Below are positions 10,799 through 26,154 of a stretch of 54,854 bases of DNA, piece by piece. The stretch lies in assembly GCA_017544835.1 (NCBI GenBank), contig JAFYDI010000108.1, positions 1-54,854 on the forward strand, in the 5' to 3' direction. Below the pieces are notes generated by a model. The model was not told the DNA's origin. It saw only the letters and a program-made list of their open reading frames with translations, and did not search any database. Each line of letters starts with the position of its first letter. Position 1 is the first letter of the stretch. This DNA comes from Lachnospiraceae bacterium. Lineage in GTDB: Bacteria > Bacillota > Clostridia > Lachnospirales > Lachnospiraceae. The position numbers and the translations under genes were made by a program.

Positions 10799-11140
10799 TT
10801 ATAAGATTGCAAAAAGAATTGCAAGAATCACAAATCCCACAGTTACAAACACAAGAAACGACACAAAAAAGACGCCGATGTCATAATTTCTTATCTTCTT
10901 ATACGACGCTTTCATCTTATCTTCCAGACCCCTTAACAGATTGTACTGGTTATTAAGCTCAGCTTTATCAAGGCCCTCCGATACCATGTATCGAATGGTC
11001 AGCTCTTCCTTACAGTCCGGGCAATTCTCGATATGTTCCAGAAACATTCTCATCTCTCCCGCCGAAAGTTCGTTATTCAAATACTGTGGAATTTCCTTCT
11101 CGATTATCTTGCAATCGATTTTGTTTTCATTCTTTTTCAT
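10799..11140 (-). CDS. Small membrane protein with zf-HC2 zinc finger (anti-sigma-like)
   Basis: 113 residues. The N-terminal half carries C10 and H36-x3-C40-x2-C43 (HIENCPDC), the zinc-binding pattern of zf-HC2 anti-sigma factors. A single C-terminal membrane helix spans about 91-112 and nothing follows it, so it has no outside sensor domain. No sigma factor gene adjoins it. It begins the leftward housekeeping transcript 12 bases before polA, just after a strong terminator. It may be an orphan anti-sigma factor or a membrane-anchored zinc-finger protein with another partner. Confidence 0.7.
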   Translation of the reverse strand: MKKNENKIDCKIIEKEIPQYLNNELSAGEMRMFLEHIENCPDCKEELTIRYMVSEGLDKAELNNQYNLLRGLEDKMKASYKKIRNYDIGVFFVSFLVFVTVGFVILAILFAIL

Positions 11141-11168: not shown

Positions 11169-11200
11169 CAAAAAAAGCGGTGAAATTAAATCACCGCTCT
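11169..11200 (-). terminator. Strong terminator ending the efflux-GH43-paralogue run
   Basis: AGCGGTGA (11176-11183) pairs with TCACCGCT (11191-11198). On the minus strand it is followed by seven T residues. It lies ten bases after the stop of the last gene of the run and before the zf-HC2 gene. Confidence 0.9.
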
Positions 11201-11210
11201 TTTCATAATT

Positions 11211-12098
11211 CTATTTTCTGATCTTATTTAAAATGCTCGTAAGCTTTTCTCTGATGAACTCTCTCTCATCGTCCTTAACAAGATAATACATGTAAGAATC
11301 GATAACCAAAGACTCGGGAAGGCCTCTTCCCACCAGTTTAAAGTTCACAAAGCCTCTGTCAATATACGAGCCTATCTCCTCATTAGAAATAAACGCAGGC
11401 CTCTTCATCGCATCGGCAAAAGAAGGCGTCTTCTTATAATTGGGACAGGGAAAGGGCTTACCCTTGTCAAACTCAAGCTGCTGACGCGACTCTGTAAGAT
11501 AATGCTGCGTACGCTTCGGACAATTCGGGAAGCACACTTCATCGGCAAGGATTTCCACTCTTGATGCATTAGGCTCAAGTTCTTTAAGAACCTTCTCGTC
11601 ATGATTAAGATCATAATCAAGAACTGCCATGAAATAATCTTTCTCAAGCTCGGCTTCAAGCTCCTTGAGTGTTTTGATGCGCTTTGTGGTAGATGAAACG
11701 TATTCAAAATTCGGATACTTATCTCTCAAATAAGCCTCAAGTACTGCGGAATTACACAATACCTGATTCTTGCCGTTGTCAGCAAGTCTCATAATAAGGT
11801 TGCAATAAGTATCACTTAAATGTTCTTCATCGATTAATGAATTGGTCCAGGTGAATCTGACAGGAGCGTCAAATCTTTCATACGTATCAAGAATAGCCTT
11901 CATATTGCTCTGCGGCATACAACCGATAACCGCTCTGCCGCCATTCCAAATTGCTCCCGGAAAAGTACCGTATACACTTCCGACAGTATATCCGTCTCTG
12001 AATTTATCAGGATATTCTTTCATAAGGTTTATGATAACCTGATTCACGTAGAAGTGAACGCAGAAACCCGGCAAATGCCAATACACCTTCTTAGCCAT
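11211..12098 (-). CDS. Unrecognised protein A with a CxxxC-R-HY motif (tandem paralogue)
   Basis: 295 residues when started at ATG 12098, which has AGGAGAAG at normal spacing; the open frame reaches an upstream GTG but that would place the ribosome site inside the gene. I do not recognise a characterised family. It shares with its neighbour the motifs LPG near the N-terminus, WNGGR, TNSLI, YCN, KYPNF-SST-K, a VLDYxxN stretch and C189-x3-C193-xxR-xxHY, plus C218. The cysteines could hold a metal or Fe-S centre. There is no signal peptide or membrane helix. The layout of alternating strands and helices recalls TIM-barrel proteins such as U32 peptidases, but this is only an impression. It is co-transcribed with protein B and a GH43. 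Confidence 0.6.
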   Translation of the reverse strand: MAKKVYWHLPGFCVHFYVNQVIINLMKEYPDKFRDGYTVGSVYGTFPGAIWNGGRAVIGCMPQSNMKAILDTYERFDAPVRFTWTNSLIDEEHLSDTYCNLIMRLADNGKNQVLCNSAVLEAYLRDKYPNFEYVSSTTKRIKTLKELEAELEKDYFMAVLDYDLNHDEKVLKELEPNASRVEILADEVCFPNCPKRTQHYLTESRQQLEFDKGKPFPCPNYKKTPSFADAMKRPAFISNEEIGSYIDRGFVNFKLVGRGLPESLVIDSYMYYLVKDDEREFIREKLTSILNKIRK

Positions 12099-12119
12099 AA
12101 AATCTTCTCCTATCACTAA

Positions 12120-13076
12120 TTAAGGCCACTGACCCGGACGAGGCCTTGAAACCGTAATTACATGAGCCTTCTCAAGATTGCGAAGAAGCAAAAGTCTAGC
12201 CTCGCCTGCCTTCTCGGGCTTAAGCATGAAGAAACAATATGTATCGATAAGGGAGAATAAGTTACCGGTTCTTCCTTCAATCTTAAAGTTATTGATACCT
12301 GCAGGAATGTACTTCTCCCAGATATCTTCGGGTGAAATAAATGTAGGATAATCCTGAATAGTATGTACACAGTTGTACTCGCCGTAATCGCAGTGCCAAT
12401 GCTTGATGGGAATCTGCTTATCAGCCGGAAGCGTACGATTAAGGAGCATAGTCTTTTGATCCTTGGCAATCTGTCTGTAATGCTCGCCGCGACGTTTACA
12501 TCCGGGCTCGCAAAGAGTATTAACCAAAACTTCGAGCTTATCCTTACGCTCAATCTTATCAAGAATGTCCCACTTATTGTTAAAATTATAATCAAGGACT
12601 ACGTACTTATAATCGCGTTCCATCTCACGATTAATCTCATCAACATCCTTAATCTCTTTACAGGTAGAGCTGTTGTATGCGAAGTTAGGATACTTCTCAC
12701 GAAGATATTTCTCCAAAATAGGTGAGAAAATCATTACCTCATTCATGCCGTTGTCAGCCGCCTGCATAAGATAATTACAGTAAGGATCTTTACAGTCATG
12801 CTCATTAAGCAAAGGATTGGTAAACGTATATCTTACCGGAATGCCCTTATCGTTAACAGCCTTAATAACGCCTTCCACAAAGGCCTTATCGCACTGATCG
12901 TACGCAGGAGTAAGTCTTCCTCCGTTCCAAAGTGCCATGGGAAATACGCCAAAGAAAGAGCCTATCTCGACTCCCTCTCTGAAATACTCGGGATGCTCCT
13001 CAAGTAAGCTTACCCAAAACATATTAAGGGGATAATTGTATCTAAGTCCCGGTAAATGAAATCTTGCAGGTAACAT
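12120..13076 (-). CDS. Unrecognised protein B with a CxxxC-R-HY motif (tandem paralogue)
   Basis: 318 residues, clearly homologous to the next gene: RFHLPGLR, MALWNGGRL, VRYTFTNPLL, DPYCNYLMQAADNG, LREKYPNFAYNSST and LEVLVNTLCEPGCKRRGEHY. The cysteine pair is again C189 and C193, and two more (C229, C235) could complete a four-cysteine site, whereas protein A shows only one in the matching region. Predicted cytoplasmic. It begins 26 bases after the GH43 stop and ends 21 bases before protein A, so all three should share one mRNA. The link to a GH43 hints at sugar metabolism, but no reaction can be proposed from sequence alone. Confidence 0.6.
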   Translation of the reverse strand: MLPARFHLPGLRYNYPLNMFWVSLLEEHPEYFREGVEIGSFFGVFPMALWNGGRLTPAYDQCDKAFVEGVIKAVNDKGIPVRYTFTNPLLNEHDCKDPYCNYLMQAADNGMNEVMIFSPILEKYLREKYPNFAYNSSTCKEIKDVDEINREMERDYKYVVLDYNFNNKWDILDKIERKDKLEVLVNTLCEPGCKRRGEHYRQIAKDQKTMLLNRTLPADKQIPIKHWHCDYGEYNCVHTIQDYPTFISPEDIWEKYIPAGINNFKIEGRTGNLFSLIDTYCFFMLKPEKAGEARLLLLRNLEKAHVITVSRPRPGQWP

Positions 13077-13102: not shown

Positions 13103-14671
13103 TTAGTCCTTAATCACGGGCTCGAAACGCTCGTAAGAGAAAGATTTAAATCTTGCATATACAGGCTCTTCTCTGTCATCTCCGTCGGTAGCAAAGATAC
13201 CTACGGTACATCCCACAAATCCGCCCGCAACTTCGGTTGAAAGCGAAGAAATATCCAAATCTCTTACAAAAGGCTGCATACCTCTTTCATTAAGTGAGTA
13301 TACAGACAATGATGTTCCCGAAACCTTCATGATTATGGTAGCGGGGCTTTCTCTTAATGCATCCTCTGCAATAAGATCTTCCTTACCGCCGTTTACCAAA
13401 ACTACGCGACCTCTGTTCTCGGTAATCTCGAAACGTACATGGAAGCCTTCGCTCTGGAACAGGCATAAGCCCGCTCTGGTACCCATCATAAGGTTGTCCG
13501 TGTAGAATGTGGCTCTTGCTTCAAAGAACTTGGAATCCTGTCTTACGCATACATAAGAGGGCACTCCCGTTCCCGAAAGATTATCTGTGCCACATTTCAA
13601 TAATAAACCATCTTCATCAAATTTAACAGCGTCATTAAGAGGAGCTCTTAAAGTCATGAACTCAGGGCCGAAAGAATCCATTTCCTTAAATTCATATTTC
13701 TTGCTGACATTGGGCCAGGTTGTCTCTGGAAGTTCAGGCTTCCAATCATCAAGTCTGATATTAAGATTGTCAGACAAAACTCCGAGTCCCGGGTTAACTA
13801 CAGGCCACTCATCTTCAAAAATAACTCGTGCAAGGAAAGTCTCTCTTCCCATTGTTGTAAAGCCCTTGGTAGGTCTTACAGCAAGCATTACCATATACCA
13901 GTCACCGTTAACCGCCTGGAATAAATCAGCGTGGCCGACATACTGGATAGGGTAAATCTTGCCAAGATGTCTGTGGGTGAAAATAGGGTTTCTTTTGCAG
14001 CCTTCGTAGGGACCGAATACGTCTTTGGAGCGTGCTACGCTTATAGCGTGCTCGGGGCCCGTACCGCCTTCTGCATGAATAATGTAGTACCAATCCCCTA
14101 TCTTATAAAGATGAGGGCCTTCAGGCCAGTGTACGCCTCTTAAAGCGCCGTTCCAAGCCTCTACACGCTTGCCTACAAGCTTAAACTCTTTATAATCGAA
14201 TTCCTGAATATAGATAAAGTAATCTCCGTCATATCTGCAGCCGTCTACATTTGGATGAGTGCCGATATAATAGCACTTTCCGTCATCGTCAAAGAAAAGG
14301 CTCGGGTCGATTCCGTCAGCTCCCTCAATATAATGAGGCTCGCTCCAGGGTCCTTCGGGGTTCTCAGCAGTTACCACGAAGTTGCCGCCAAAAGAAACAT
14401 TCGTGCAAATAACATAGAACAATCCGTCATAATAACGAATCGTAGGCGCAAAAAGTCCTCTCGATACGCCCGCATCCTGAAGAGGTAACTGCGAAGGACG
14501 GTCGAGTACATTGCCTATCTGCTCCCAGTGAGCCAGATCCTTACTATGCATAACGGGAAGTCCCGGGAAGTATGCAAAAGAAGAATTCACAAGATAGTAA
14601 TCATCATTAACTGCACAAATCGAAGGGTCGGGATAGAATCCCGCCAATATGGGGTTTTTAGCTACAGACAT
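13103..14671 (-). CDS. Intracellular GH43 glycosidase (xylosidase/arabinofuranosidase type)
   Basis: 522 residues from ATG 14671, chosen because AGGAGAAG precedes it; a TTG one codon earlier is the only alternative. The five-blade GH43 propeller shows the catalytic set: D15 (base, YPDPS), D122 (GIDPSLFFDDDG) and E184 (HWPEGPHLYK). A C-terminal beta-sandwich from about 320 matches the accessory domain of 500-plus-residue beta-xylosidases and arabinofuranosidases. There is no signal peptide, so it acts on imported oligosaccharides. It follows an efflux-type ABC gene by 39 bases with no terminator between them, an unusual pairing. The exact substrate cannot be settled by eye. Confidence 0.85.
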   Translation of the reverse strand: MSVAKNPILAGFYPDPSICAVNDDYYLVNSSFAYFPGLPVMHSKDLAHWEQIGNVLDRPSQLPLQDAGVSRGLFAPTIRYYDGLFYVICTNVSFGGNFVVTAENPEGPWSEPHYIEGADGIDPSLFFDDDGKCYYIGTHPNVDGCRYDGDYFIYIQEFDYKEFKLVGKRVEAWNGALRGVHWPEGPHLYKIGDWYYIIHAEGGTGPEHAISVARSKDVFGPYEGCKRNPIFTHRHLGKIYPIQYVGHADLFQAVNGDWYMVMLAVRPTKGFTTMGRETFLARVIFEDEWPVVNPGLGVLSDNLNIRLDDWKPELPETTWPNVSKKYEFKEMDSFGPEFMTLRAPLNDAVKFDEDGLLLKCGTDNLSGTGVPSYVCVRQDSKFFEARATFYTDNLMMGTRAGLCLFQSEGFHVRFEITENRGRVVLVNGGKEDLIAEDALRESPATIIMKVSGTSLSVYSLNERGMQPFVRDLDISSLSTEVAGGFVGCTVGIFATDGDDREEPVYARFKSFSYERFEPVIKD

Positions 14672-14710
14672 CAATCTTCTCCTTTATATCACAATAATAA
14701 GCACACGCTT

Positions 14711-15589
14711 TTAGGGCTTGGTAATAATAATCTCGTTGTCTCTGTAAGAAATCTTAACCTTATTGTCCGTAAGGCCTAACTTCTCAATAAGCTCGTGGGG
14801 CACCTGCAAACGATTTGCACGGTCAAGTACCACATATTCCTCCTGAGAATCAATCTCTCTCCAGTCGATGTTAGACTCTTTAAGTCTGTCGGCAAACTCT
14901 TCCTTAAGCACACGCTCTGAACTTATCTTACCGTCTCTGATTGCGATAACACGCTTAACCTTCTTGGAAAGCGCAATATCATGTGTAACGATAAGAATAG
15001 TCTGGCCGTTCTTATTAAGTTCGGTAAATACATCAAAAATATAATCCGCAGTCTTAAAGTCAACAGAACCCGTAGGCTCATCGGCAAGCAAAAGCTTCGG
15101 TGAATTGGCAAGTGCGATTGCAATTGCAACTCTCTGCTGTTCACCACCTGAAAGCATGTTCATTCGGCTGTTCTTCTTATGGCTCATACCTACCATTTCA
15201 AGAAGCTCAATAGCCTTATCATGTTTATGCTTGGTGCTTGATAAGTTCATAGGCATCATAACATTTTCAAGTGCCGAAAGGAAGGGCAACATGTTACGTC
15301 CGTTGTTCTGCCATACAAATCCTACCGTATCTCTCTTATAAAGAACAAGCTCCTTCTCAGACATGGTAAATAAGTTCTTACCGTCTACGAACAATGAACC
15401 CGCGCTGGGCTTATCAAGTCCGCCTATCATGTTAAGGAAAGTGGACTTACCTGAACCTGAGTTACCGATTATAGCAGTAAGCTCGCCGGTCTCAACCGTA
15501 AGGTCAAGTCCCTGAAGCGCAAGTACTTCCGTCTCCTTAGTCTTATAAATCTTTACGAGGCCGTCAGCCCGAATCATTTCATCAGCCAT
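14711..15589 (-). CDS. ABC transporter ATPase with C-terminal AbrB-like domain
   Basis: 292 residues. Residues 1-220 are a complete LolD/MacB-type ATPase: P-loop GNSGSGKST (42-50), signature LSGGEQQRV, Walker B LLLADEPTG and H-loop VTHD. LolD-type ATPases usually end near 230. Here a linker leads to residues 250-292, which read VVLDRANRLQVPHELIEKLG and then a short beta-hairpin, closely resembling the swapped-hairpin AbrB/SpoVT DNA-binding domain. The gene overlaps the previous ATPase by 8 bases. It powers the FtsX permease encoded upstream, probably as a heterodimer with the other ATPase. The tail may sense or regulate, or be only a structural module. Confidence 0.85.
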   Translation of the reverse strand: MADEMIRADGLVKIYKTKETEVLALQGLDLTVETGELTAIIGNSGSGKSTFLNMIGGLDKPSAGSLFVDGKNLFTMSEKELVLYKRDTVGFVWQNNGRNMLPFLSALENVMMPMNLSSTKHKHDKAIELLEMVGMSHKKNSRMNMLSGGEQQRVAIAIALANSPKLLLADEPTGSVDFKTADYIFDVFTELNKNGQTILIVTHDIALSKKVKRVIAIRDGKISSERVLKEEFADRLKESNIDWREIDSQEEYVVLDRANRLQVPHELIEKLGLTDNKVKISYRDNEIIITKP

Positions 15590-16268
15590 TTATTCTCACC
15601 CCGTTCTCAAGTTCTATTATCATGTCGGCAGCACCCATAAGACCTACGTCATGAGTGGTCATAAGGATAGTGATGCCTTCTTTTCTGGTCATTTCCTTGA
15701 ATATCTCTGTGACCTTGGCCGCCATCTGTGAATCAAGTTCCGCAGTAGGCTCATCGGCAAGTATCAGCTTGGGACCGTGTGCAAAAGAACGTGCTATTGC
15801 AACTCTCTGCTGCTCACCACCCGACATCTCGGAAGGCATATGATTCATACGATTTCCAAGGCCTACAAGTCTTAAGCATTCTTCGACACGCTTGTCTCTT
15901 TCTTTGGACGGCTTAATGCCTGCCATGCGCATGGAGAACTCAACGTTCTGGAATGCATTGAGCGAAGGAATAAGTGAAACCGACTGGAATACAAATCCGC
16001 AATCGCGCCTTCTTAAATTCTCACGCTCATGTTCAGACATGTTCTTGATGGGAGTACCGTTTAAATATACCGCACCATCGGTAGGGTCGTCCAAAGTACC
16101 GATAATATTCATAAGTGTGGTCTTACCGGAACCGGAACGTCCCTTTAATATAGCAAAAGTACCTGCGGGCACTTCCGCGTTTATTCCTTTAAGAGCGGTA
16201 AACTCGCCACCCGGCACCGGGAAGACTCTGGTTACGCCGCTTACCTTAATTACGCTTTCATTACTCAT
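15582..16268 (-). CDS. ABC transporter ATPase, LolD/MacB type
   Basis: 228 residues, the standard size. P-loop GRSGSGKTT, Q-loop FQSVS, signature MSGGEQQRV, Walker B LILADEPTAE and H-loop TTHD are all intact. The start codon overlaps the last base of the permease gene's stop and its end overlaps the next ATPase, so the three are translationally coupled. It should drive conformational changes of the FtsX-type permease to move a substrate out of the membrane or periplasm-equivalent space. Confidence 0.9.
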   Translation of the reverse strand: MSNESVIKVSGVTRVFPVPGGEFTALKGINAEVPAGTFAILKGRSGSGKTTLMNIIGTLDDPTDGAVYLNGTPIKNMSEHERENLRRRDCGFVFQSVSLIPSLNAFQNVEFSMRMAGIKPSKERDKRVEECLRLVGLGNRMNHMPSEMSGGEQQRVAIARSFAHGPKLILADEPTAELDSQMAAKVTEIFKEMTRKEGITILMTTHDVGLMGAADMIIELENGVRING

Positions 16269-19066
16269 TATTCTTCACCTAACTTAAGAGCCTTTGTAAC
16301 ATTCATTCTAAAGAGTATAAATACAAGTACCAAAAGTACCACAATCATTACCGTTGCAATAACACCGTACAATCTGTACATATCCGATGCCACCGTAATA
16401 AGTCTCATCGGAAGTGCCTGATTCTCGGATGAATATGCCTGCTGAAGTATCGGTACGAATAATTTGGAAGTAAGCTTACCGATTCCGATACCTGCAAATA
16501 TCGATAATACTCCGGAGAATACCTGCTCATTTAAAAGCATGTGGAATATCTCGCCCTTATGGAAACCGGTTGCTCTCAGTACACCGAATATAAGCTCACG
16601 CTCTCTTATGGACATTACCCAGTAAATAAGGTAACCTACCGCGCAAAGCACAATCGTAACAACAAAGCCCATAGTAAGCACACCGTTGGTACCCTGAAGC
16701 AGCGGATCTCCCATGGTAGCCTTCAAATCAAGCTCACGGTTCTCATATTTCTTAACGCTTAACTTGTGCTCATCTACCCAATTATACACGTCAAGTGCGG
16801 TAGCATCTTCATTAAGCTGAATCCATACTTCGTAGGGATATGTGCCCCATTTGTTGGACAAATAATCGTAGTTGGCAACTATAAGGTAGTTTTCCTTGGA
16901 AAAAGCAGTTCCGTCGGGGTTAAGTCCGTTAGTCATCGGCGCATAACTCGGGAAGTAGTCAAAGAAACCTACAATCTTACAAGTCGCCGGCTTTTTCTTT
17001 GAATTACTGAATATAATACTGTCGCCGATATTGTAACCAAGCTTGGTGTTAAAGTTCTTCGAAAGAAGTACGCCGTCCTCAACTACCGCAAGGTCGTTTA
17101 AATACTCATAATAATGTTTCTCAAGGAATTCCTTGCTGACCATTGTCTGTGCGCCGAATTCCTTCGTATTAATTCCGAGAATCTGTGTAGTAATTGCGTC
17201 AGTGTTGCTTCCCACACGGCCTTTCTCTTCGTTAAATACTCTTGTATAACTCTTGGCGGCTGTAAGCGTATTGTACTTGGAGTAATCAGGCACAATATAG
17301 TCGCCGGTATATGAACCGTATCTGTCGGTAATCTCCGTCCATACTTCCTTGATAATAACGTCAGTTGCATCAAGGTACTCTGTATTCTCAACCGCATTGT
17401 CAAGAATGGTACGAGCTACCGTAGCATGATACATACCAAGAGAAATCGTCATAATAAGGAACAGCATAATAAGCTGCTGCTTACGACCGTTTTTGATATT
17501 CTCCATGAAGGATACGTGGCTGGCCGGTCCCCACCATTTTTTACCGATCTTGTAGATTAAAGATACAAGATGAGGCTGAATACGTAAAAAGAACATGCCT
17601 GCGCCCACAATAAACAGTGATGAACTGATATAAAGAAGCGGGTCTAAGCTCTCACCCGACAAAACTGTGCCGGATAAATCCTTCATATTCTTGTTAAAGC
17701 TATAGAAGCCGTACAAGGAAACTCCGAGGAGTAAAATATCAATAAATAACTTCTCCCACCAGCTCTTCTTCTTAAGCGCATTGCTCTGCTTAAGGTTAAC
17801 GATTGTAACCTTACTGTGCTTAAAAGAAGGAATCGTGATGCTAAGCAAGCATACGCCGATTGCAACCAGCGCATATATAAATGATTCCTTGGTATATGAA
17901 ACATTCAAGGATTGAGAGAAATCAAACTCCAGGAAGTTTCTGGTGGAACCAAGTACCCTTGCAAATAATGCGCCAAGAGGCATACCAACTACAGCGCCCA
18001 CAAGTGTAAGTACAAGTCCCTGGTAGAAATACAACCTGATAATCTGTCCGCTTGAACTACCACGGCTCTTGATTACAGAAATCTCACTTTTCTCCATCTC
18101 GTACATCTGTCCGGAAATCATGAACAGGAATGCAGCAAGCATCGCAAGCACGGGAACCTGCAAGATAATCAAGGTTGCAGATATTCTTGTAAGTTTCTTA
18201 TTGTATTCATCAAAAATCTTAATATAATCGGGCTCTTTGAGGACGCTCTTAAAAGCGCTCTCTTCTGTATAATACTTAGTATCTGCGTAGATTCTGTCTA
18301 CATCGCCCGCTTTAACCGACTCATAATCAAACATCGGAACGATATAACTGGTGATTGTATACTTGCCGACATTATCGCCCATAAATGTTCTTCTGAACAC
18401 GTCTTCACGACAAAGAATAGTGTCGTTAAGTTTTTCAGGCTTAATCTGCCAGAAATAGTTAAGTTCGTCGGCCGAATCATAAACACCCTTTACGTATACT
18501 CTGAGTGCCTTTCCATCGGGAGCCTTTATATCGTCAAAAGTAAAATACTCATTAACCAAAAGTCCCTTGTCAACCATACAAGACTGGCTTATTAATACTT
18601 CTATTGCACCGTCTTCCGTCACTCCGGCTTCCGAATACATTTCTCCGGCAAGTAACTTAATATGGTCTGTCATATCTCCGATTGCCGCAAGTTTAATTGC
18701 AAGTGCCTGAGCATCGCCTCTTCCCGTTTCCGAACTCATGGGAGTCGAGGCCAAAGAAAGTTCACGGAAAGTTGATGTCTCAGTAACCTTTAAGCGGTCA
18801 TAGAAGCCCTGTGCAAACTCGTCCATTTTCTTAAGGGTTGCACCGCCTTTTTCTTTTCTCGATACAACTGTGGCACTGATTAATGTAGGCCATTTACCCT
18901 CAGTTGATATGTAGTTCTCAAATTCATCATTTATCATTCGATCGTAAGCGGCCGCTCTGTAAAGAGGAAAGCTTACGACGGTGGCAGTAAGAAGGATGCA
19001 TCCCAAAAGAAGGCAGATATTCATCCATTTCTTATGCCACATTTTTTCAAGCATTATTCCAAGCAT
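16268..19066 (-). CDS. Large FtsX/MacB-type ABC permease with two FtsX domains
   Basis: 932 residues. An N-terminal membrane helix (about 15-35) leads to a large outside domain up to about 290. Three helices follow (ISATLIILQVPVLAMLAAFL, LVLTLVGAVVGMPLGALFA, YALVAIGVCLLSITI), then a further pair, a second outside domain (about 560-760), and three C-terminal helices ending VIVVLLVLVFILFRM. This is the double-FtsX layout of large Gram-positive permeases. It exports or extracts lipids, peptides or antibiotics in characterised relatives; the substrate here is unknown. It lies between the adaptor genes and the two ATPases, overlapping both by a few bases. Confidence 0.85.
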   Translation of the reverse strand: MLGIMLEKMWHKKWMNICLLLGCILLTATVVSFPLYRAAAYDRMINDEFENYISTEGKWPTLISATVVSRKEKGGATLKKMDEFAQGFYDRLKVTETSTFRELSLASTPMSSETGRGDAQALAIKLAAIGDMTDHIKLLAGEMYSEAGVTEDGAIEVLISQSCMVDKGLLVNEYFTFDDIKAPDGKALRVYVKGVYDSADELNYFWQIKPEKLNDTILCREDVFRRTFMGDNVGKYTITSYIVPMFDYESVKAGDVDRIYADTKYYTEESAFKSVLKEPDYIKIFDEYNKKLTRISATLIILQVPVLAMLAAFLFMISGQMYEMEKSEISVIKSRGSSSGQIIRLYFYQGLVLTLVGAVVGMPLGALFARVLGSTRNFLEFDFSQSLNVSYTKESFIYALVAIGVCLLSITIPSFKHSKVTIVNLKQSNALKKKSWWEKLFIDILLLGVSLYGFYSFNKNMKDLSGTVLSGESLDPLLYISSSLFIVGAGMFFLRIQPHLVSLIYKIGKKWWGPASHVSFMENIKNGRKQQLIMLFLIMTISLGMYHATVARTILDNAVENTEYLDATDVIIKEVWTEITDRYGSYTGDYIVPDYSKYNTLTAAKSYTRVFNEEKGRVGSNTDAITTQILGINTKEFGAQTMVSKEFLEKHYYEYLNDLAVVEDGVLLSKNFNTKLGYNIGDSIIFSNSKKKPATCKIVGFFDYFPSYAPMTNGLNPDGTAFSKENYLIVANYDYLSNKWGTYPYEVWIQLNEDATALDVYNWVDEHKLSVKKYENRELDLKATMGDPLLQGTNGVLTMGFVVTIVLCAVGYLIYWVMSIRERELIFGVLRATGFHKGEIFHMLLNEQVFSGVLSIFAGIGIGKLTSKLFVPILQQAYSSENQALPMRLITVASDMYRLYGVIATVMIVVLLVLVFILFRMNVTKALKLGEE

Positions 19067-21159
19067 ATCTTTGTTCCTTCCGAAAGCCCATCGGCAACCC
19101 AGTAATTAAAGTTGTCGCTTCCACCTGCGATAAAGCTCTTAAGTGTAGGCTTATTATTTTCGTCAAGTATAGTTACGTAAGTCACTCCGTTTTCAACGGT
19201 AACGGCACCCCTGGGTACGAGTACTACATTGTCCATTGAACGCACTTCAACAGATACGTCAAAGTGACTTCTCATCCACCATCCGTCGTAACCTCTGTTG
19301 GATGCTGCCATCTTGGCGAAATCTTCTTTTGAAACTTTTATTACATTGTAGCCGGAATCAAGGTCTGAGCTTACAGCGCAGTTGGATACCATTACTACTT
19401 CTCCGATTGCCTCAGCCTTTTCTCCCGCCTCATCGTCATACTTTATTACCGCTTCGTTGCCGTATGTAATCTGTCCTGCTTTGTCTTCAACAACTATGTA
19501 GCAGTTGTTTTCGTCAGCAAGTTTGCAGACATTGGCGTCGCGCTGAAGGATATCTCCTTCCTCAAATGTACTGATTTCCGTGATGATTCCCGAAAAAGGA
19601 GCCTTTATTACGGTTGTAGCCGCATCTTTCTTCATATCGCTTATAAGCTCCTGAAGGTCGGCTATCGAATCCTGCTTAATCTTAATAAGCTTTTCGTTCT
19701 TTTCTTTGTCCTTCTCAAGGTCTGCAAGGTCTTCCTGTAATCTTAACAGGCTTCTTTCGTTACGCTTTATATTGATGTCATCGCCGCTTACTCGAATCTT
19801 GGCAATTACCTGACCTTTTTCAACTCTTTCGTAACGCTTTACACAAACCTCAGAAATATATGTAACACCATATTTGATTGGATTGTTGATATACTCGCTC
19901 TTGGGGTAGAAAATGTATCCTGTTTCATTAAACTGAACACAAATCTTGCCCTTTGAAACTGCTTCGGTCTTGGATTTTTTCTTGACCTTAAACTCGGATA
20001 CCACTCTGTCACCCTCGTTAAGTCCCGATAAGATTTCCGTATAAAAACCGTTCTTAATGCCTGTTTTTACGGGGGTTAAAGAAGTGCTCTCTCCATCATA
20101 AACATATACATAAGCTCCGTCGGAGTCAGCCTTTATCGCATCTGTGGGAACGCAGAGCGCACCATCTCTCTTATTGCTTATTACAATTATTGTTGCAAAA
20201 TCTCCGGCTTTGATTTCACCCGAATCATCCTTAATCAAGAAGGTAGAATAGCTGCTGGAGGTTTCCGTCGATGTAGCCGCTCCGGAATCAGCCGTCTCAG
20301 GCTCTACAAACTCAACTTCATAACGTTTGCCGTTTATAATCGCATAATAGTCTACCGCGCGCTTTATTTCGCTCTTGTAAACCATTTCACTTCTGATTCG
20401 CAAATCGTTTAAATCGCCTACAGCCGCCACGGAAACATCTTTGGAAATGTAATTGTTCCAGTCAAAGAGGCCGATGGACACTACTGTTCCCGCGTCCTTG
20501 GCATTGGCAAGAACGTTTTTGCGTTCGGTGTTAAGCTGTCTTAAACACAAAGTGTCATAATCTCTGTCAACCTGGTAGAGTTCTCTGGTCTCCTTGGCCT
20601 TTTCTTCGCTTTTCTGAAGTGATGCTGTCGCGTTGGCAAGAAGATATTTGTATCTTGCATATGAACCAGAGCTTTCATAGGCAGCTCTTTCTGTACTACT
20701 TAAAGCTTCTATATTTTTGACTATTTGCTCGTAATACTCGACGTTCCATTCATTCTCATAATATGATTTATCATATATGTCTTTAATGGCTTCTTCATAT
20801 TTCTCATCGTTGGTGGCGATTTTTTCTTTTAACGTTTTAATCTTCTTATCGATATCTTCAGTTGAAGCATAAACTACGGTATCGCCCTTACCTACTGTAT
20901 TGCCGGGAAGAACCCCGTATCTGTCAAAACGCTGATTGGTGGAAAAAGAAATCTCCGTAACCTTCGGAACAACCTTGCCGCCATAGGTCTTATAAGTGAC
21001 AAGATCTTGTCTTGAAGCAACCGCATAATTGGCTGTAACGCCGACGGGCTCAACAAGTTCTATTCCTTCGCTTAAGTCCGTTTTGTCGGAGCAACCTGCA
21101 AGCGTAGACAGGACAAGCGTAGATATCATTAATACAATAACTGATTTTTTAATACTCAT
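19054..21159 (-). CDS. Double-length membrane-fusion adaptor lipoprotein
   Basis: 701 residues, about twice the usual HlyD/MacA adaptor. A lipobox STLAGC (Cys23) anchors it outside the membrane. Residues 40-395 form one adaptor: beta-barrel, long charged coiled coil (about 105-205), then GDFATIIVISNKRDGALCVPTDAI and LSGLNEGDRVV. Residues 400-701 form another: KVSGD-type lipoyl half, coiled coil (about 465-515), TVIKAPFSGIITEIS, VVLVPRGAVTVENGVTYV and DGLSEGTKICLE. Each half therefore has its own coiled coil and terminal barrel. It overlaps the permease gene by 13 bases and the first adaptor by 4, so it works with them as one export complex. Confidence 0.8.
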   Translation of the reverse strand: MSIKKSVIVLMISTLVLSTLAGCSDKTDLSEGIELVEPVGVTANYAVASRQDLVTYKTYGGKVVPKVTEISFSTNQRFDRYGVLPGNTVGKGDTVVYASTEDIDKKIKTLKEKIATNDEKYEEAIKDIYDKSYYENEWNVEYYEQIVKNIEALSSTERAAYESSGSYARYKYLLANATASLQKSEEKAKETRELYQVDRDYDTLCLRQLNTERKNVLANAKDAGTVVSIGLFDWNNYISKDVSVAAVGDLNDLRIRSEMVYKSEIKRAVDYYAIINGKRYEVEFVEPETADSGAATSTETSSSYSTFLIKDDSGEIKAGDFATIIVISNKRDGALCVPTDAIKADSDGAYVYVYDGESTSLTPVKTGIKNGFYTEILSGLNEGDRVVSEFKVKKKSKTEAVSKGKICVQFNETGYIFYPKSEYINNPIKYGVTYISEVCVKRYERVEKGQVIAKIRVSGDDINIKRNERSLLRLQEDLADLEKDKEKNEKLIKIKQDSIADLQELISDMKKDAATTVIKAPFSGIITEISTFEEGDILQRDANVCKLADENNCYIVVEDKAGQITYGNEAVIKYDDEAGEKAEAIGEVVMVSNCAVSSDLDSGYNVIKVSKEDFAKMAASNRGYDGWWMRSHFDVSVEVRSMDNVVLVPRGAVTVENGVTYVTILDENNKPTLKSFIAGGSDNFNYWVADGLSEGTKICLE

Positions 21160-22235
21160 TTCTTTAATACCTTTTCTCCTTCTGAAAGACCGCTAAGTAC
21201 TTCTACTTTTTCGTCTCCCATAAGTCCTACCTCAATATAACGAATCTCACGTACGTTTTCTGCCGACAACGTGTATACGAAAGCTTTGTCGCCTGCAACG
21301 TGCACAGTGTCCTTAGGAACCGATAATACATGTTCTTTCTTGGCAATTTCTACAGAAATTGTTCCCATAACGCCCATATCGATTTCCGAATTATCAGGGC
21401 CGTCGTAAATACTGAACAGCATCTGATCGTTCCAGGATTCCATTTCATAAGGCATTACAAGATAATCACCTGCGGCACTTGAGTAAATAATCTTCATGTC
21501 AACAGCTTTACCTTCTTCAAAAAGGTTCTTGTATTCAATAGCCGTTGAAGAGAACAAGCAGTTTGTGTCATCTACTATAGTCATAATTACAGTTCCTGCT
21601 TTGGATGTAGAGCCTTCAAGATTCTGCTTTAACTTGTATACCTTTCCGTCCATGTTGGCGTATAATCTGCTGGCACGAAGCTCTTTCTGCTTCTTCGCTA
21701 GTTCTTGTCTGTCAAATTCAAGAGAATCATTTAACAGTTCGCGCTCTCTCGCATACTGGCTCTTGATATTTTCAATATCCTTTTCAACATCTTTGGTGTC
21801 AGCATTTTGAAGGATATTGCTAATCCATCTGTCCTGAACTGCAAGTTCTTCATTGGTCGCGGAATACTGCAAAAGAAGTTCATTGCGCTTAATCTTATAA
21901 CTTAATTCATCAATAGACTTCTGCAATGCATCGGAAGATAATTCGCATAAAAGCGTTCCCTTCTTAACCTTCTCGCCTTCCTTAACATATACTTTGTCGA
22001 CATACTTGCCGGTCTGGTTAAAAGAAACCTCCTGGGAATTGGTCTGCACATAGGTGCAATCAATCTTTCCGCTTTGAACAACATCATCATATGTAACAGG
22101 AATCAGATTGAAAGACATAACATCTTCTTCCGAATCAACTATTACGAGAGGTACCTCTTCATTTTTAGTACATGCAGACAATGCAAGTGTTGAAGCAACA
22201 AGCAATACTGCACATAATCTAATTCGTTTTTTCAT
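21156..22235 (-). CDS. Membrane-fusion adaptor lipoprotein (HlyD/MacA-like)
   Basis: 359 residues from ATG 22235, which has GGAG upstream and gives a clean lipoprotein signal ending LALSAC (Cys22). An earlier in-frame ATG would disrupt the signal peptide. The order is a barrel strand, a lipoyl half (VYVKEGEKVKKGTLLCELSS), a coiled coil (about 112-195), the second lipoyl half (YANMDGKVYKLKQNLEG) and a C-terminal barrel ending EVLSGLSEGEKVLKK. It starts the export operon and precedes the double-length adaptor. In MacAB-like systems the adaptor presents substrate to the permease; in Gram-positives such adaptors act without an outer-membrane channel. Confidence 0.85.
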   Translation of the reverse strand: MKKRIRLCAVLLVASTLALSACTKNEEVPLVIVDSEEDVMSFNLIPVTYDDVVQSGKIDCTYVQTNSQEVSFNQTGKYVDKVYVKEGEKVKKGTLLCELSSDALQKSIDELSYKIKRNELLLQYSATNEELAVQDRWISNILQNADTKDVEKDIENIKSQYARERELLNDSLEFDRQELAKKQKELRASRLYANMDGKVYKLKQNLEGSTSKAGTVIMTIVDDTNCLFSSTAIEYKNLFEEGKAVDMKIIYSSAAGDYLVMPYEMESWNDQMLFSIYDGPDNSEIDMGVMGTISVEIAKKEHVLSVPKDTVHVAGDKAFVYTLSAENVREIRYIEVGLMGDEKVEVLSGLSEGEKVLKK

Positions 22236-22508
22236 AGTAAATCTCCAATATTTCAAATTACAAATGACATTGTACTTTATGATAATGCATAATTCCTATT
22301 ACTTTTTGCTTTTTTTAAGTAAAAATGTGCTAATTTTACAAAAAATAACTAGCGAGAAAAAGGGAGTTTTGAAGAAAAATATGCGAAGTGCGATTTTTAA
22401 CGCGAAAAATAGTTTCCTGAAAATGCTTATAAATTCAATTAAATTATATAAAAGATAATTTCAGTTTTTTAATATGCAAAAACGGCTATTTGCATATATA
22501 TAATTACA
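22236..22508. other. Gene-free AT-rich leader region of the export operon
   Basis: No plausible gene on either strand. The region is very AT-rich. It contains one clear symmetrical element: ATATGCAAA (22472-22480) and TTTGCATAT (22489-22497), a 9-bp inverted repeat with an 8-base centre, which may be an operator or hairpin. TATAAT-like boxes occur on the minus strand but none has a convincing -35, so the promoter of the export operon is not placed. Confidence 0.5.
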
Positions 22509-22568: not shown

Positions 22569-24038
22569 TTACTGGTTAGCTTCGTCGATGTACTGCTTGT
22601 ACATGTCGCGGCATCCATCCATAATGGTAGATACAGGATCACAGTTAGGTCCGAACTTCCACTGGAAAGGAGCACCCATATCAAGGTTAGGAATAACTGC
22701 CTCTAACTGAATCTCAGAGTTCTTAGACATAAGCGGAACAGTTTCCTCACATGCTCTCTGGTCGAAGTTACCGGTACGTGTGGTATTTACGTAAGGGTTG
22801 TAATCTTCATAACCGGGAACGAACTCGTTGTAAAGGCTGTATGCAAATGCACACTTCCAAGCTCTGTCAGCATCGTAGCAAGCAGGGATAATGCAAACGT
22901 TATCCTGTGCGGTCTGAACAAGCTTACCCTTAGGTCCCTTCGGGAACATTACGAAGCCAAGACCATCCTCGGTCTCAGGCTGCTCGTAGAAAAGGTTACC
23001 GGGTGTTGCGCAGTACTGCTGATCGCAAACGAATGCGCATCCGCCGTTCTGGAACTGACCCTGATAGTAATCCCATGAAGGAGCGCTGCCGTCTTCGCCT
23101 TCGGGACCATTCCAGTCGTACTTGGTGAAGATATCGCGAACCCATTCAAGAGCTTCAAGAGTTTCAGGAGATTCGAATTCGTAGGTGTACTTGCCGGAAG
23201 CATCCTGACCAACGTACTTACCGCCGTTAGAGAATACAGCTGCTGTAACCATAACGCCTTCGTTAACACCAAGACCCCAGATATCGGTGGTACCATCGTT
23301 ATCGGTATCCTGCTGAACCTTCTCAAGGATCTCTTCGAATGCTGCCCATGTCCAGGTATCATTCTTCTGCATATCGTAAATAGAATCGGGATCAACACCG
23401 GCTTCTCTTAAGATCTTCTTGTTGAAGTATAAACCGGTTCTGGGCTCTGCCCAACCTGCACGGAATGCATAAATGCCACCGTTAACAGTGTAAAGTTTGT
23501 GAACGCCGTTAGCCCACTTAGCTTCGGAGAAGTCAAGGCAATCAAGAGTAGAAAGGTCATAAACAAGACCATTGTCGATTGCTGAAAGAAGTGTGCCATC
23601 ACCTGAGTGAAGGGTGAATACGTAGTTCTTGTCGTCGCCGCCTGCTGTAGCGTAATCAACGAAGTCCTGAGCTACTGTTCCCCAGTCACCGATGGTTTCT
23701 GCGTGAATTTTGAAGTTGTAGGTTTCCTGAATCCAATCCTGGTAAGCGTACTGAGCTTCTTCGAACTCGGTCTTAGCTTCGTCTCTCTCTGCTTTGGAGA
23801 ACCAGTCACGGATAATAATTTCAACACCGCCAAGATCGTAGGTGTTGCCGTTAGCGTCCTTTAATACGGTATAAGGGCTAACTTCTTCTTCAACTGACTC
23901 AGATACAACGGGTTCTGTTGAAGCGGGTGCTGCAGACTCGGAAACAGACGCAGGGGCCTTTTCGCAAGCTGCAAAACTCATGGTCATAGCGGCTGCCATA
24001 GAAGCTGCTAAAACCTTCTTTGCCATAGGCTTTCTCAT
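22569..24038 (-). CDS. Extracellular solute-binding lipoprotein (ABC sugar type)
   Basis: 489 residues. A signal peptide ending MSFAAC (Cys25) is followed by a Ser/Ala/Glu-rich linker and a family-1 type binding fold, with typical stretches GLYFNKKILREAGVD, WTWAAFEEILEKVQQDTDNDG and FVMFPKGPKGK. It should capture xylo- or arabinoxylo-oligosaccharides for the permeases encoded just upstream. AGGAGG lies nine bases before the ATG. A separate promoter and paired direct repeats occur in the 162-base gap before it, so it can be made in excess of the permeases, as usual for binding proteins. A strong terminator follows. Confidence 0.88.
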   Translation of the reverse strand: MRKPMAKKVLAASMAAAMTMSFAACEKAPASVSESAAPASTEPVVSESVEEEVSPYTVLKDANGNTYDLGGVEIIIRDWFSKAERDEAKTEFEEAQYAYQDWIQETYNFKIHAETIGDWGTVAQDFVDYATAGGDDKNYVFTLHSGDGTLLSAIDNGLVYDLSTLDCLDFSEAKWANGVHKLYTVNGGIYAFRAGWAEPRTGLYFNKKILREAGVDPDSIYDMQKNDTWTWAAFEEILEKVQQDTDNDGTTDIWGLGVNEGVMVTAAVFSNGGKYVGQDASGKYTYEFESPETLEALEWVRDIFTKYDWNGPEGEDGSAPSWDYYQGQFQNGGCAFVCDQQYCATPGNLFYEQPETEDGLGFVMFPKGPKGKLVQTAQDNVCIIPACYDADRAWKCAFAYSLYNEFVPGYEDYNPYVNTTRTGNFDQRACEETVPLMSKNSEIQLEAVIPNLDMGAPFQWKFGPNCDPVSTIMDGCRDMYKQYIDEANQ

Positions 24039-24057
24039 AGTATTTTTCCTCCTATTA

Positions 24058-24086
24058 TCTATATACTATAGTATCAACATTGACAA
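24058..24086 (-). promoter_or_regulatory. Probable promoter of the binding-protein gene
   Basis: On the minus strand TTGTCA (24081-24086) and TATAGA (24058-24063) are separated by 17 bases, and the start codon lies about 20 bases further on with AGGAGG between. It would give extra transcripts of the binding protein within the larger operon. Confidence 0.45.
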
Positions 24087-24118
24087 TTGAACTCTTCCGG
24101 GAGTATCAATGTCGATAC
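24071..24118. promoter_or_regulatory. Direct repeats GTATCAA and an inverted repeat near the promoter
   Basis: GTATCAA occurs at 24071-24077 and 24103-24109, the same way round and 32 bases apart, or three helical turns. The second copy also forms an inverted repeat with GATAC (24114-24118). Same-face direct repeats are typical of AraC-family operators, and an AraC gene lies in this locus. Confidence 0.35.
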
Positions 24119-24200
24119 ATAATACATACTAACTTAAACGATTACTTAATCATTTTACTACAGACTGGATAAATATGGAAGTAAAAAAACGATTTTTTTG

Positions 24201-25217
24201 TTACATTTTTATACCGGTACTTGAAATACTTTCTACAAACGCTCTCTGTGCGAAGAGATACACTACAAGTATCGGGAAAACAATCATCAATGTACCTGTT
24301 GCAAGTATAGCATTTGAATACTGTGTGGATACACCTACCTGAGCATTGGCACCGCCACCCATCTCTCTGGCTACATATACACCCAAGCTGTCTACAAGTC
24401 TTGAAAGTTCGGTACTTACCAAGGTGTTGTTACCAAGGAAGAGCTTGGAGTAGAAACCGTCAGTCCACTGCCATACAAGCGAGAACAGGAAGCATGATGT
24501 AATAATCGGCTTAGCTTCGGGAAGCATAATGCGTACAAATGTCTTCATCATACCGCATCCGTCAACGTATGCTGCTTCTTCAAGGTCAATAGGAATGTTT
24601 CTGAAGAACTGTCTTACAAGGTAAATGTATAAGCCGTTCTTAAGACCACAGCATGTGAAACTCATCATGAAGTAAGGAATTGCACTGCCTCGAAGGTTGA
24701 TTCCCTGACCCTTGATAAGCTTAACGATACCAAGGAAATCCCACATGTTAAAGTGAAGGTAAAGTGAGCTTGAAAATGCCTGCGGAGGAATAATAATCAT
24801 TCCAAGCACAAATGCAAACCACATATTCTTAAGCGGGAACTTAAATCTTGCGAATCCGTATCCTACGATTGTACACATAGCGGTCTGAATAATCGCAAGT
24901 GACAATGAGAAAATTATGGAATTCTTAAGTCCCACACCGTATTTCATAATTCTTGCGGCAAGCTGGTAATTCTCACCGGTGAAATGAAGCGGAACCGATA
25001 CAACTATAGGATTATATAAGTCTTCCTGCTTCATGAAGCTTACTGAAATCTTATTAAACAAAGGAATAAGAATCAGGAAGCAAAGACCGAATAAAAGGAT
25101 AAATCTGCAAAGCTTTACAAGTACATCTGTAACATCTTTTCTAAAGAGGTATCCGCCGGACTTTCTATTTCTGTCCCAGTAGGTACTGTATTTTTGAACT
25201 TTTACTTTTTTAGTCAT
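24201..25217 (-). CDS. Carbohydrate ABC permease, MalG type
   Basis: 338 residues with six membrane helices and the cytoplasmic EAA loop EEAAYVDGCGMMKTFVRIMLP, which docks the ATPase. The length exceeds the usual 280 because of an insert after the first helix and a longer periplasm-side loop (NLRGSAIPYFMMSF region). It overlaps the upstream MalF-type gene by 8 bases and starts with a GGGGG site. With its partner it forms the first of two permease pairs in this locus. No ATPase is encoded nearby; a shared MsmX-like one is presumably used. Confidence 0.88.
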   Translation of the reverse strand: MTKKVKVQKYSTYWDRNRKSGGYLFRKDVTDVLVKLCRFILLFGLCFLILIPLFNKISVSFMKQEDLYNPIVVSVPLHFTGENYQLAARIMKYGVGLKNSIIFSLSLAIIQTAMCTIVGYGFARFKFPLKNMWFAFVLGMIIIPPQAFSSSLYLHFNMWDFLGIVKLIKGQGINLRGSAIPYFMMSFTCCGLKNGLYIYLVRQFFRNIPIDLEEAAYVDGCGMMKTFVRIMLPEAKPIITSCFLFSLVWQWTDGFYSKLFLGNNTLVSTELSRLVDSLGVYVAREMGGGANAQVGVSTQYSNAILATGTLMIVFPILVVYLFAQRAFVESISSTGIKM

Positions 25218-26118
25218 AGTAGTAAACCCCCTTAGAAATGAAGAAGGATGTAATTCCTATAAATGCTGTAACTATTATAAAGTATGCCCAAGCCATCGCT
25301 GAGGACAGACCATAGTTAAGCTGTACGGTAAGTACCGTTTGAATCTTGTCCATAACGTCGTTGTCAGATCTCATGGAGTAGTCAACAACGGTATAAATCC
25401 AGTTTACTAAGAAGATTGAACTGATCATGGGGAAAGTAATCTTCCAAAGGCTCTCCCACTTAGTACATCCTTCGATGTCAGCGGCTTCATACATACTGCT
25501 TGAGATTGTCTGAAGGCCTGACAGGAAGATAATAATCTGAATACCTGAAGCAATTGCGATATCATAAATATTAGCAATAATTTCAAATACCCATTCATAT
25601 GCTCTTACACCAACGCCTGCAGTTCTCAAAACTTCCTGAAGTCCTGCCGTAATGTCAATATTCGAAACAGATGAATCAACGGTTGTGGCAATCTGCGCCA
25701 TAAGGGAGTTGTTCTCTTCAAGTCCTAAGATGACACCGGATGAAATAATTACCGGAAGGAAGAACACGGCTCTTACGAGTGCACGGCCTCTGAATTCCTG
25801 GTTAAGTATCAAAGCTACAAAGAAGCTGAATACTATAATACCGAAGGAATAAAGAACCATCTGTCCAAGGGTCTCTCCCAGCATTCTCATGTAATCGGGA
25901 TCGGTACGGAAAGCATCGTAATAATTCTTAAGTCCAATCCATTCCATTTCAACGGAACCGGCACCGAGTTTAACGTTGCTGAAGCTCATGTACAAAGACT
26001 GAAACATAGGCTTAAGCATAAAAAGCAGGAAACCGAGTATAAAAGGAAGTATGAACAGATAACCCGCAATCGCTTTTCTCTTCTGAAGACCCGCTAATTT
26101 GTTTTTTTGTTTCTTCAT
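25210..26118 (-). CDS. Carbohydrate ABC permease, MalF type
   Basis: 302 residues, six membrane helices, beginning with the basic N-terminus and AIAGYLFILPFILGFLLFML. The EAA loop is YEAADIEGCTKWESLWKITFP. An outside loop of about 50 residues (SSGVILGLEENNSLMAQIA onward) is larger than in MalF-type permeases of simple sugars and may contact the binding protein. It is joined by an 8-base overlap to the MalG-type gene and follows the DUF5696 gene by 36 bases. Confidence 0.88.
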   Translation of the reverse strand: MKKQKNKLAGLQKRKAIAGYLFILPFILGFLLFMLKPMFQSLYMSFSNVKLGAGSVEMEWIGLKNYYDAFRTDPDYMRMLGETLGQMVLYSFGIIVFSFFVALILNQEFRGRALVRAVFFLPVIISSGVILGLEENNSLMAQIATTVDSSVSNIDITAGLQEVLRTAGVGVRAYEWVFEIIANIYDIAIASGIQIIIFLSGLQTISSSMYEAADIEGCTKWESLWKITFPMISSIFLVNWIYTVVDYSMRSDNDVMDKIQTVLTVQLNYGLSSAMAWAYFIIVTAFIGITSFFISKGVYYYD

Positions 26119-26154
26119 AATAAAAACTTACCTCTCACAAAATTGGTATATCTA

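Follow-up and report, generated by a model that had tools for sequence, protein, structure and literature searches.

Divergent U32-superfamily barrel proteins encoded as a tandem pair in a Lachnospiraceae bacterium

Two adjacent paralogous genes and their conserved residues

In a stretch of 54,854 nucleotides from a Lachnospiraceae bacterium (contig JAFYDI010000108.1 of assembly GCA_017544835.1, positions 1 to 54,854; the whole stretch is hereafter called the window), two adjacent genes encode paralogous proteins, here called A and B, which we assign to a divergent branch of U32 proteins. Both genes lie on the minus strand. Gene B (13076..12120) starts with ATG and encodes 318 amino acids, a divergent U32-like TIM (triosephosphate isomerase) barrel of the B lineage, and gene A (12098..11211) encodes a similar barrel of the A lineage of 295 amino acids, counted from the ATG that lies behind a GGAGA sequence, the mechanically called open reading frame (ORF) beginning six codons further upstream. 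The end of B is separated by 21 bp from the ATG of A, and 26 bp lie between the stop of an upstream GH43 gene and the start of B. A terminator-like hairpin with a T run, read by eye from the sequence, follows A (11170..11197, minus strand), which suggests that A is the final gene of the transcript. Reading by eye likewise revealed no apparent signal sequence at the N-terminus of A or of B, and both proteins are probably cytosolic.

BLASTP aligned A with B over 301 columns at 37% identity (184 bits, E 7e-61); in a control in which A was compared with 500 letter-shuffled versions of B, the best score was 26.2 bits. The initial annotation of this DNA, made from the sequence alone, had described the two adjacent ORFs and a series of shared motifs, and all of these were borne out in both proteins: WNGGR at residue 51 in A (11934..11948, minus strand) and 50 in B (12915..12929, minus strand), YCN at 98/99, KYPNF at 127/128, VLDYxxN at 159/160 and CxxxCxxRxxHY at residues 189-200 of each, so that the cysteine pair is 189/193 in A and in B alike.

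Residue conservation was determined in an alignment of 123 non-redundant members of at least 270 amino acids and of clear subtype, comprising 35 A, 38 B and 50 proteins of a third type, C (10 ambiguous members were counted apart). Invariant in all 123 rows are N165, E182, C189, C193, R196, K254, G257 and R258. The motif C189-x3-C193-x2-R196-x2-H199-Y200 occupies 11499..11534 in A and 12477..12512 in B, both on the minus strand, as are the codons that follow. A further candidate cysteine, 89-90 residues upstream of the CX3C pair, is C99 in A (11802..11804) and C100 in B (12777..12779); this candidate first cluster ligand is Cys in 121 of 123 rows (34/35 A, 38/38 B, 49/50 C). The candidate fourth ligand is C218 in A (11445..11447), which aligns with C229 in B (12390..12392) and is Cys in 34/35 A and 38/38 B proteins. 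Because C99/100, C189 and C193 are conserved and C218 aligns with C229, A and B share a set of four cysteines. An earlier alignment of 67 rows, made after removal of fragments below 270 amino acids and of identical sequences, had set C218 and C229 in separate columns; in this alignment the W, GG and R of WNGGR are invariant (67/67). The initial annotation had counted one later cysteine in A, which is correct (C218), and two in B, which has three (229, 236 and 281), and had taken the unequal numbers as a sign that one copy may be catalytic and the other structural. Since the cysteines in question align, this sign of different roles was dropped after the 123-row alignment.

The three types also have residues of their own. 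B alone carries C62 and C139 (38/38 each), and the C type has Cys instead of His at position 199 in 50/50 members and Ser, Ala or Phe at position 218 in 49/50. A KIEGR-type loop, with K254, G257 and R258 in every row, is common to all; the looser pattern KxxGR was found in 87 of 90 scanned members, a set that includes duplicates and in which the pattern sometimes caught a neighbouring site. Radical S-adenosylmethionine (SAM) enzymes are recognised by the motif CX3CX2C, and the position of its third cysteine is Arg in 123/123 rows.

Placement in the U32 superfamily

The initial annotation had reported that the two proteins match no known family, and for NCBIfam, which matched neither A nor B and gave no U32 family in a scan of 28 members, this stands. 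In Pfam, Peptidase_U32 (PF01136) touched B in hmmscan at 20.6 bits, below the cut-off of 22.4, and did not match A; B reached 22.6 bits in a Pfam U32 search of the genome when it was scored together with neighbouring pieces, and the same model touches 15 of the 28 members at E<=1 (best 6e-5). PHROGs gave weak matches only, for A, and PDB sequence searches with B and with our A1 profile returned matches at chance level. Because direct database matches failed, the assignment rests on profile comparisons, on a bridge clade and on the fold, which do not support the claim that no family is known. Against a set of eight canonical U32s, including UbiU, UbiV, TrhP and RlhA of Escherichia coli, profile comparison gave a probability of 94.5 (E 8e-8) over 206 columns, reaching the KIEGR loop. 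The bridge clade, A3, consists of 11 proteins, 10 of which are matched by Pfam U32, the first at 49.5 bits; in hhalign it is linked to A1 at 99.8 (E 5e-30) and to the canonical proteins at 98.9 (E 3e-17). The best structural match of the models of both A and B is Mk0906 (PDB 5D88), which differs from them in having an identity of 10-12%; E182 falls on strand 7 of the models, and KxxGR partly on strand 8 and partly behind it. A and B are (β/α)8-barrel proteins with profile similarity to U32, and they form a divergent branch of this superfamily that has its own cysteine spacing and is largely missed by the Pfam cut-off and by NCBIfam. Among the matches listed in the open-access literature, judged by titles and the openings of abstracts, no paper dealt with a CX3C branch of U32 or with U32 genes in nonribosomal peptide synthetase (NRPS) clusters.

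A tree built from 47 proteins (302 columns) split nine canonical U32s from the 38 others at 100/99, placing A and B outside the canonical clade. Lineages A, B and C each form one clade at 100/100 and are common to several genera, by which a recent tandem duplication is ruled out; judged from these sequences, A and B are old paralogues. Distant cousins from NRPS, radical SAM and phage Marfa loci group weakly (55/36), and finer placement is unsure because of long branches (UbiV, L082, L165, L080, L161 and own_U32c).

Distribution, pairing and proposed function

The host genome (2.87 Mb) contains four members in two places, namely A and B in the window and an A-like gene (51%) with a C-type gene on another contig. 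Nineteen named relatives are labelled Lachnospiraceae or Butyrivibrio, and most of those with a stated source come from the gut or the rumen. With all subtypes pooled, the B query matched in 34 of 144 relatives, and the A1 profile in 49 of 344 genomes sampled from the order and in 8 of 398 sampled from the phylum; these eight comprise four strong matches, two in the radical-SAM-linked clade and two weak ones in long U32 frames. Searching the phylum with A3 (213/398) recovered predominantly canonical U32s, and no count of the branch was taken from it. Twelve of the 144 relatives carry B, and all 12 also carry A, side by side in 11 and 12 kb apart in G058. All 17 genomes that the A query led to and that were searched in full likewise hold B, non-adjacent in eight of them. 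Among the 40 typed genomes of the order sample, B was found in 11 and A in five, every A together with B; eight of the 48 positive order genomes (the window's own apart) are untyped, four with members of a distant clade and four with weak matches in long frames. It seems that A needs B, whereas B can do without A. The two ORFs of 22 adjacent pairs, a list that counts some genomes twice, are always on the same strand, with gaps of -10 to 283 bp.

The explanation that we favour overall, with a confidence somewhat above even, is that A and B are a divergent U32 iron-sulphur (Fe-S) pair acting as oxygen-independent hydroxylases or oxidases. UbiU and UbiV, the anaerobic ubiquinone hydroxylases of E. 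coli, resemble them in the U32 barrel, in being two paralogues encoded side by side and in their conserved cysteines; each is reported to bind a [4Fe-4S] cluster on four cysteines, and the two form a heterodimer (PMC6747719). According to the same report, four conserved cysteines occur in 8 of 10 U32 families, usually as CX6CX15CX3/4C, and the first ligand of UbiV lies far upstream (CXnCX12CX3C), as would be the case in A and B (PMC6747719). Of 12 published U32 groups, PepU32#5 and #6 are without the usual cysteines (PMC6747719). UbiU and UbiV differ in that they are not orthologous to A and B, falling in the canonical clade, in their cysteine spacing, and in that B can occur alone. By analogy with these proteins, and with C189 and C193 invariant as part of the shared four-cysteine set, it is likely that each of A and B holds one [4Fe-4S] cluster, on a predicted site formed by C99/100, C189, C193 and C218/229; the metal or Fe-S centre that the initial annotation had proposed for these cysteines gains support as an inference, and their conservation is complete at 189 and 193. 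Whether A and B function together in genomes that have A is, to our judgement, evenly poised; modelled on the UbiU-UbiV heterodimer, B would be the core member and A a partner dependent on B. Oxygen-independent hydroxylation or oxidation in strict anaerobes is a suggestion in which we place neither more nor less confidence than in its contrary, and prephenate as the oxygen donor is a tentative one. The host genome has a chorismate mutase, and a 2024 PNAS paper cited in a review (PMC11574389) reportedly deals with prephenate as oxygen donor. Homology to U32, the barrel fold, residue conservation and the dependence of A on the presence of B are thus observations, and the cluster, the dimer, the chemistry and the donor are inferred.

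Several observations weigh against this explanation. Foldseek TM-scores of the models to 5D88 are modest (0.46/0.57). The canonical motif CX6CX15CX3/4C is absent, and C189-X3-C193 followed by C218/C229 stands instead; the profile alignment with canonical U32s sets E182 and C189 on UbiU E161 and C169, but does not align C193 with the second cysteine of canonical U32s, CX3C taking the place of CX6C. C-type paralogues are without Cys at the 218 position, and the combined pattern E-x(5-7)-C-x3-C failed in 6 of 14 distant cousins, by reading for want of the glutamate in five and by spacing in the protein of phage Marfa, which has ten residues between the cysteines. In 6 of the 11 order-sample genomes with B, listed as 99-100% complete, A was not found, and therefore an obligate heterodimer is not general and strict interdependence of A and B is ruled out; in two genomes (G810, G048) the sole member is of ambiguous subtype and most like A or B. 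A check of the gene neighbourhood at 28 B loci, of which the window and L035 are near-identical, found no neighbour kept throughout. Finally, direct catalysis is described as unproven even for the model U32 oxidases (PMC11574389). Few U32 reactions are known, and how the oxygen donor reacts and what the cluster does are described as open questions (PMC11574389).

True peptidase activity would agree with the family name and with the annotation 'peptidase' of the Marfa relative. It is nevertheless very improbable, for the Cys/Glu set with which hydroxylation by TrhP and RlhA is connected is among the conserved residues, TrhP being reported to require E162, C170 and C177 (PMC6599085), cluster binding is reported for UbiU/UbiV (PMC6747719), and neither N-terminus has an apparent signal sequence. 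As a branch with a different cysteine spacing in many Lachnospiraceae, these proteins offer compact (~300 amino acids) test cases for air-free oxygen insertion by Fe-S proteins, and the A/B branch is worth a biochemical test.

Genomic neighbours and distant cousins

Upstream of B, and all on the minus strand, Pfam identified a GH43 gene with a C-terminal beta-xylosidase domain (13103..14674; PF04616, PF17851), two ATP-binding cassette (ABC) exporter ATPases (14711..15589, an ABC_tran protein kept near B in several genomes, and 15582..16268), an FtsX-like permease (16268..19066; Pfam FtsX), two HlyD-like membrane fusion proteins (19054..22256) and an ABC importer, consisting of a solute-binding protein and two permeases, with a DUF5696 protein (22569..28761). 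The DUF5696 protein (26155-28761) is kept with two permeases, and mostly with a solute-binding protein too, in several genomes. Behind A, a small zf-HC2 (anti-sigma-like) protein (10799-11140, Pfam) lies between A and polA. The surroundings have the look of a region for xylan use and transport, but the pair is not bound to it. Because flank lengths differ between the 28 B loci, the absence of a neighbour is weak evidence in the counts that follow.

GH43 adjoins B in six loci (the window, L035-L038 and L147), and a GH10-like gene (Pfam GH10 confirmed) adjoins A in L037 and L140. A partnership with GH43 was dropped as a general rule, and the sugar chemistry that had been read from this linkage is a weak though possible reading: a sugar ABC importer precedes B in 7/28 loci, and other genomes have the two genes in different surroundings. 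That A and B are TIM-barrel relatives of glycosidases (GH84/GH20-like) acting with GH43 is scarcely credible in view of these six loci, of the U32 profile evidence and of the model comparisons, in which 5D88 ranks 3 to 5 Z units higher. The initial annotation had recognised real paralogues and made a sensible guess at an Fe-S or metal centre; it did not recognise the family, and it made too much of the GH43 link and of the cysteine counts.

As a narrower form of the favoured explanation, A and B might be tailoring enzymes in a product or nutrient pathway, their target being a secreted peptide, glycan or small molecule moved by the neighbouring exporter or importer. This is possible, if on the unlikely side. 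The exporter genes (FtsX permease, ATPases, HlyD-like) are next to B, with or without an intervening GH43 gene, in 12/28 loci, the sugar importer lies upstream in 7/28, the FtsX permease is present at an identity of at least 58% in all 12 B genomes among the 144 relatives, and distant cousins sit inside NRPS clusters, in L130 and L131 as pairs. On the other hand, neither transporter was found within the flanks covered in 11/28 loci, among them L134 with another ABC permease and ATPase, and four less complete genomes (62-82%) carry the exporter permease (54-70% identity) but gave no B match of that type. In Butyrivibrio, moreover, a gene of 328 amino acids precedes B in five of six separate loci; it is a diaminopimelate dehydrogenase in L228 (Pfam) and by reading in L231, the match in L229, L230 and L233 being one of length only, and a similar gene precedes B in L049. 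An exporter partnership is strong in the genus and in G058, and was not found beside B in most other genera.

The CX3C-type cousins (~320-430 amino acids) share CxxxC and KxxGR with A and B, and are linked to A1 in hhalign at 99.8, but differ in size; in most of them a further CxxxCxxCxxC-like motif stands at the C-terminus, and C99 has no equivalent. In L128, L130, L131 and L167 they lie between or beside condensation, AMP-binding and carrier-domain genes; L160 has an AMP-binding gene (Pfam) and, by reading, a carrier-like gene, and L129, L132, L161, L165 and L166 have other kinds of neighbours. Being physically tied to peptide-synthesis genes, such cousins are new candidate tailoring enzymes for anaerobic natural products. 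In five loci from three genomes of one genus (L100 9043-10227, L101 9446-10633, L162 7879-9081, L163 7141-8343 and L164 7582-8775; families searched in two of the three genomes), two radical SAM genes flank a U32-like gene and a Tyr/Asn/Trp-rich repeat protein in the conserved order radical SAM, U32-like, repeat protein, second radical SAM. This set may be an undescribed protein-maturation system. Tad-like pilus genes, by reading, adjoin it in L100, L101 and L163.

Phage-type contigs carry branch members too. Klebsiella phage Marfa gp040 (L107 5839-6999), which matches B at 26.8% (E 8e-3) and falls on the same side of the tree, differs by its cysteine spacing and by its place between thymidylate kinase and thymidylate synthase genes, and might hydroxylate bases as part of the modification of phage DNA. 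It is one of the points in favour of A and B acting as hydroxylases on the bases of RNA (or on nucleotides), as a counterpart of TrhP and RlhA particular to this lineage, with incidental sugar and transport neighbours. TrhP and RlhA, the proteins of prephenate-dependent RNA hydroxylation, are reported to modify RNA (PMC6599085), and several B genes and the C-type genes have no shared neighbours. We nonetheless consider this role improbable: A and B lack the C-terminal extensions of TrhP and RlhA, three other U32 genes above the Pfam cut-off in the genome could serve that role, and other substrates are indicated by the cousins that occur in NRPS clusters or next to radical SAM genes. TrhP and RlhA share the U32 barrel core, the motif glutamate with the first cysteine and the KIEGR loop with A and B, and differ in having CX6C and in belonging to the canonical clade. 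Judged by their contexts, the cousins may act on peptides, nucleotides or surface proteins, but the role of A and B does not follow from this. Speculatively, and with little probability in our judgement, the CX3C branch could be a separate class of oxygen-independent tailoring enzymes, often paired, that act on peptide-like or secreted products in anaerobes (NRPS clusters, radical SAM maturases, Lachnospiraceae export and sugar-uptake operons), some having been acquired by phages to modify nucleotides or tails, in which A and B would be a paired anaerobic hydroxylase for a new substrate class.

Some further loci were noted. In L082 and L083 (5899-6849), a U32-like gene lies among genes reading as phage-tail-like, directly before a carbamoyltransferase gene (Pfam, L082), and in L131 (10991-15301) an NRPS-type protein with a B12-binding domain stands beside the U32-like pair, with a carbamoyltransferase-like gene by reading. 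The U32-like gene of L165 (7686-8645) follows shortly after genes reading as type III CRISPR (clustered regularly interspaced short palindromic repeats; cmr), a proximity that is probably due to chance because a close homologue in L166 is without cmr genes. In MT836087 (L108 2624-6090), deposited as a bacteriophage, a U32-like gene is followed by a bacterial-type polA, for which reason it was not counted as phage evidence; in the window, polA likewise lies two genes behind A.
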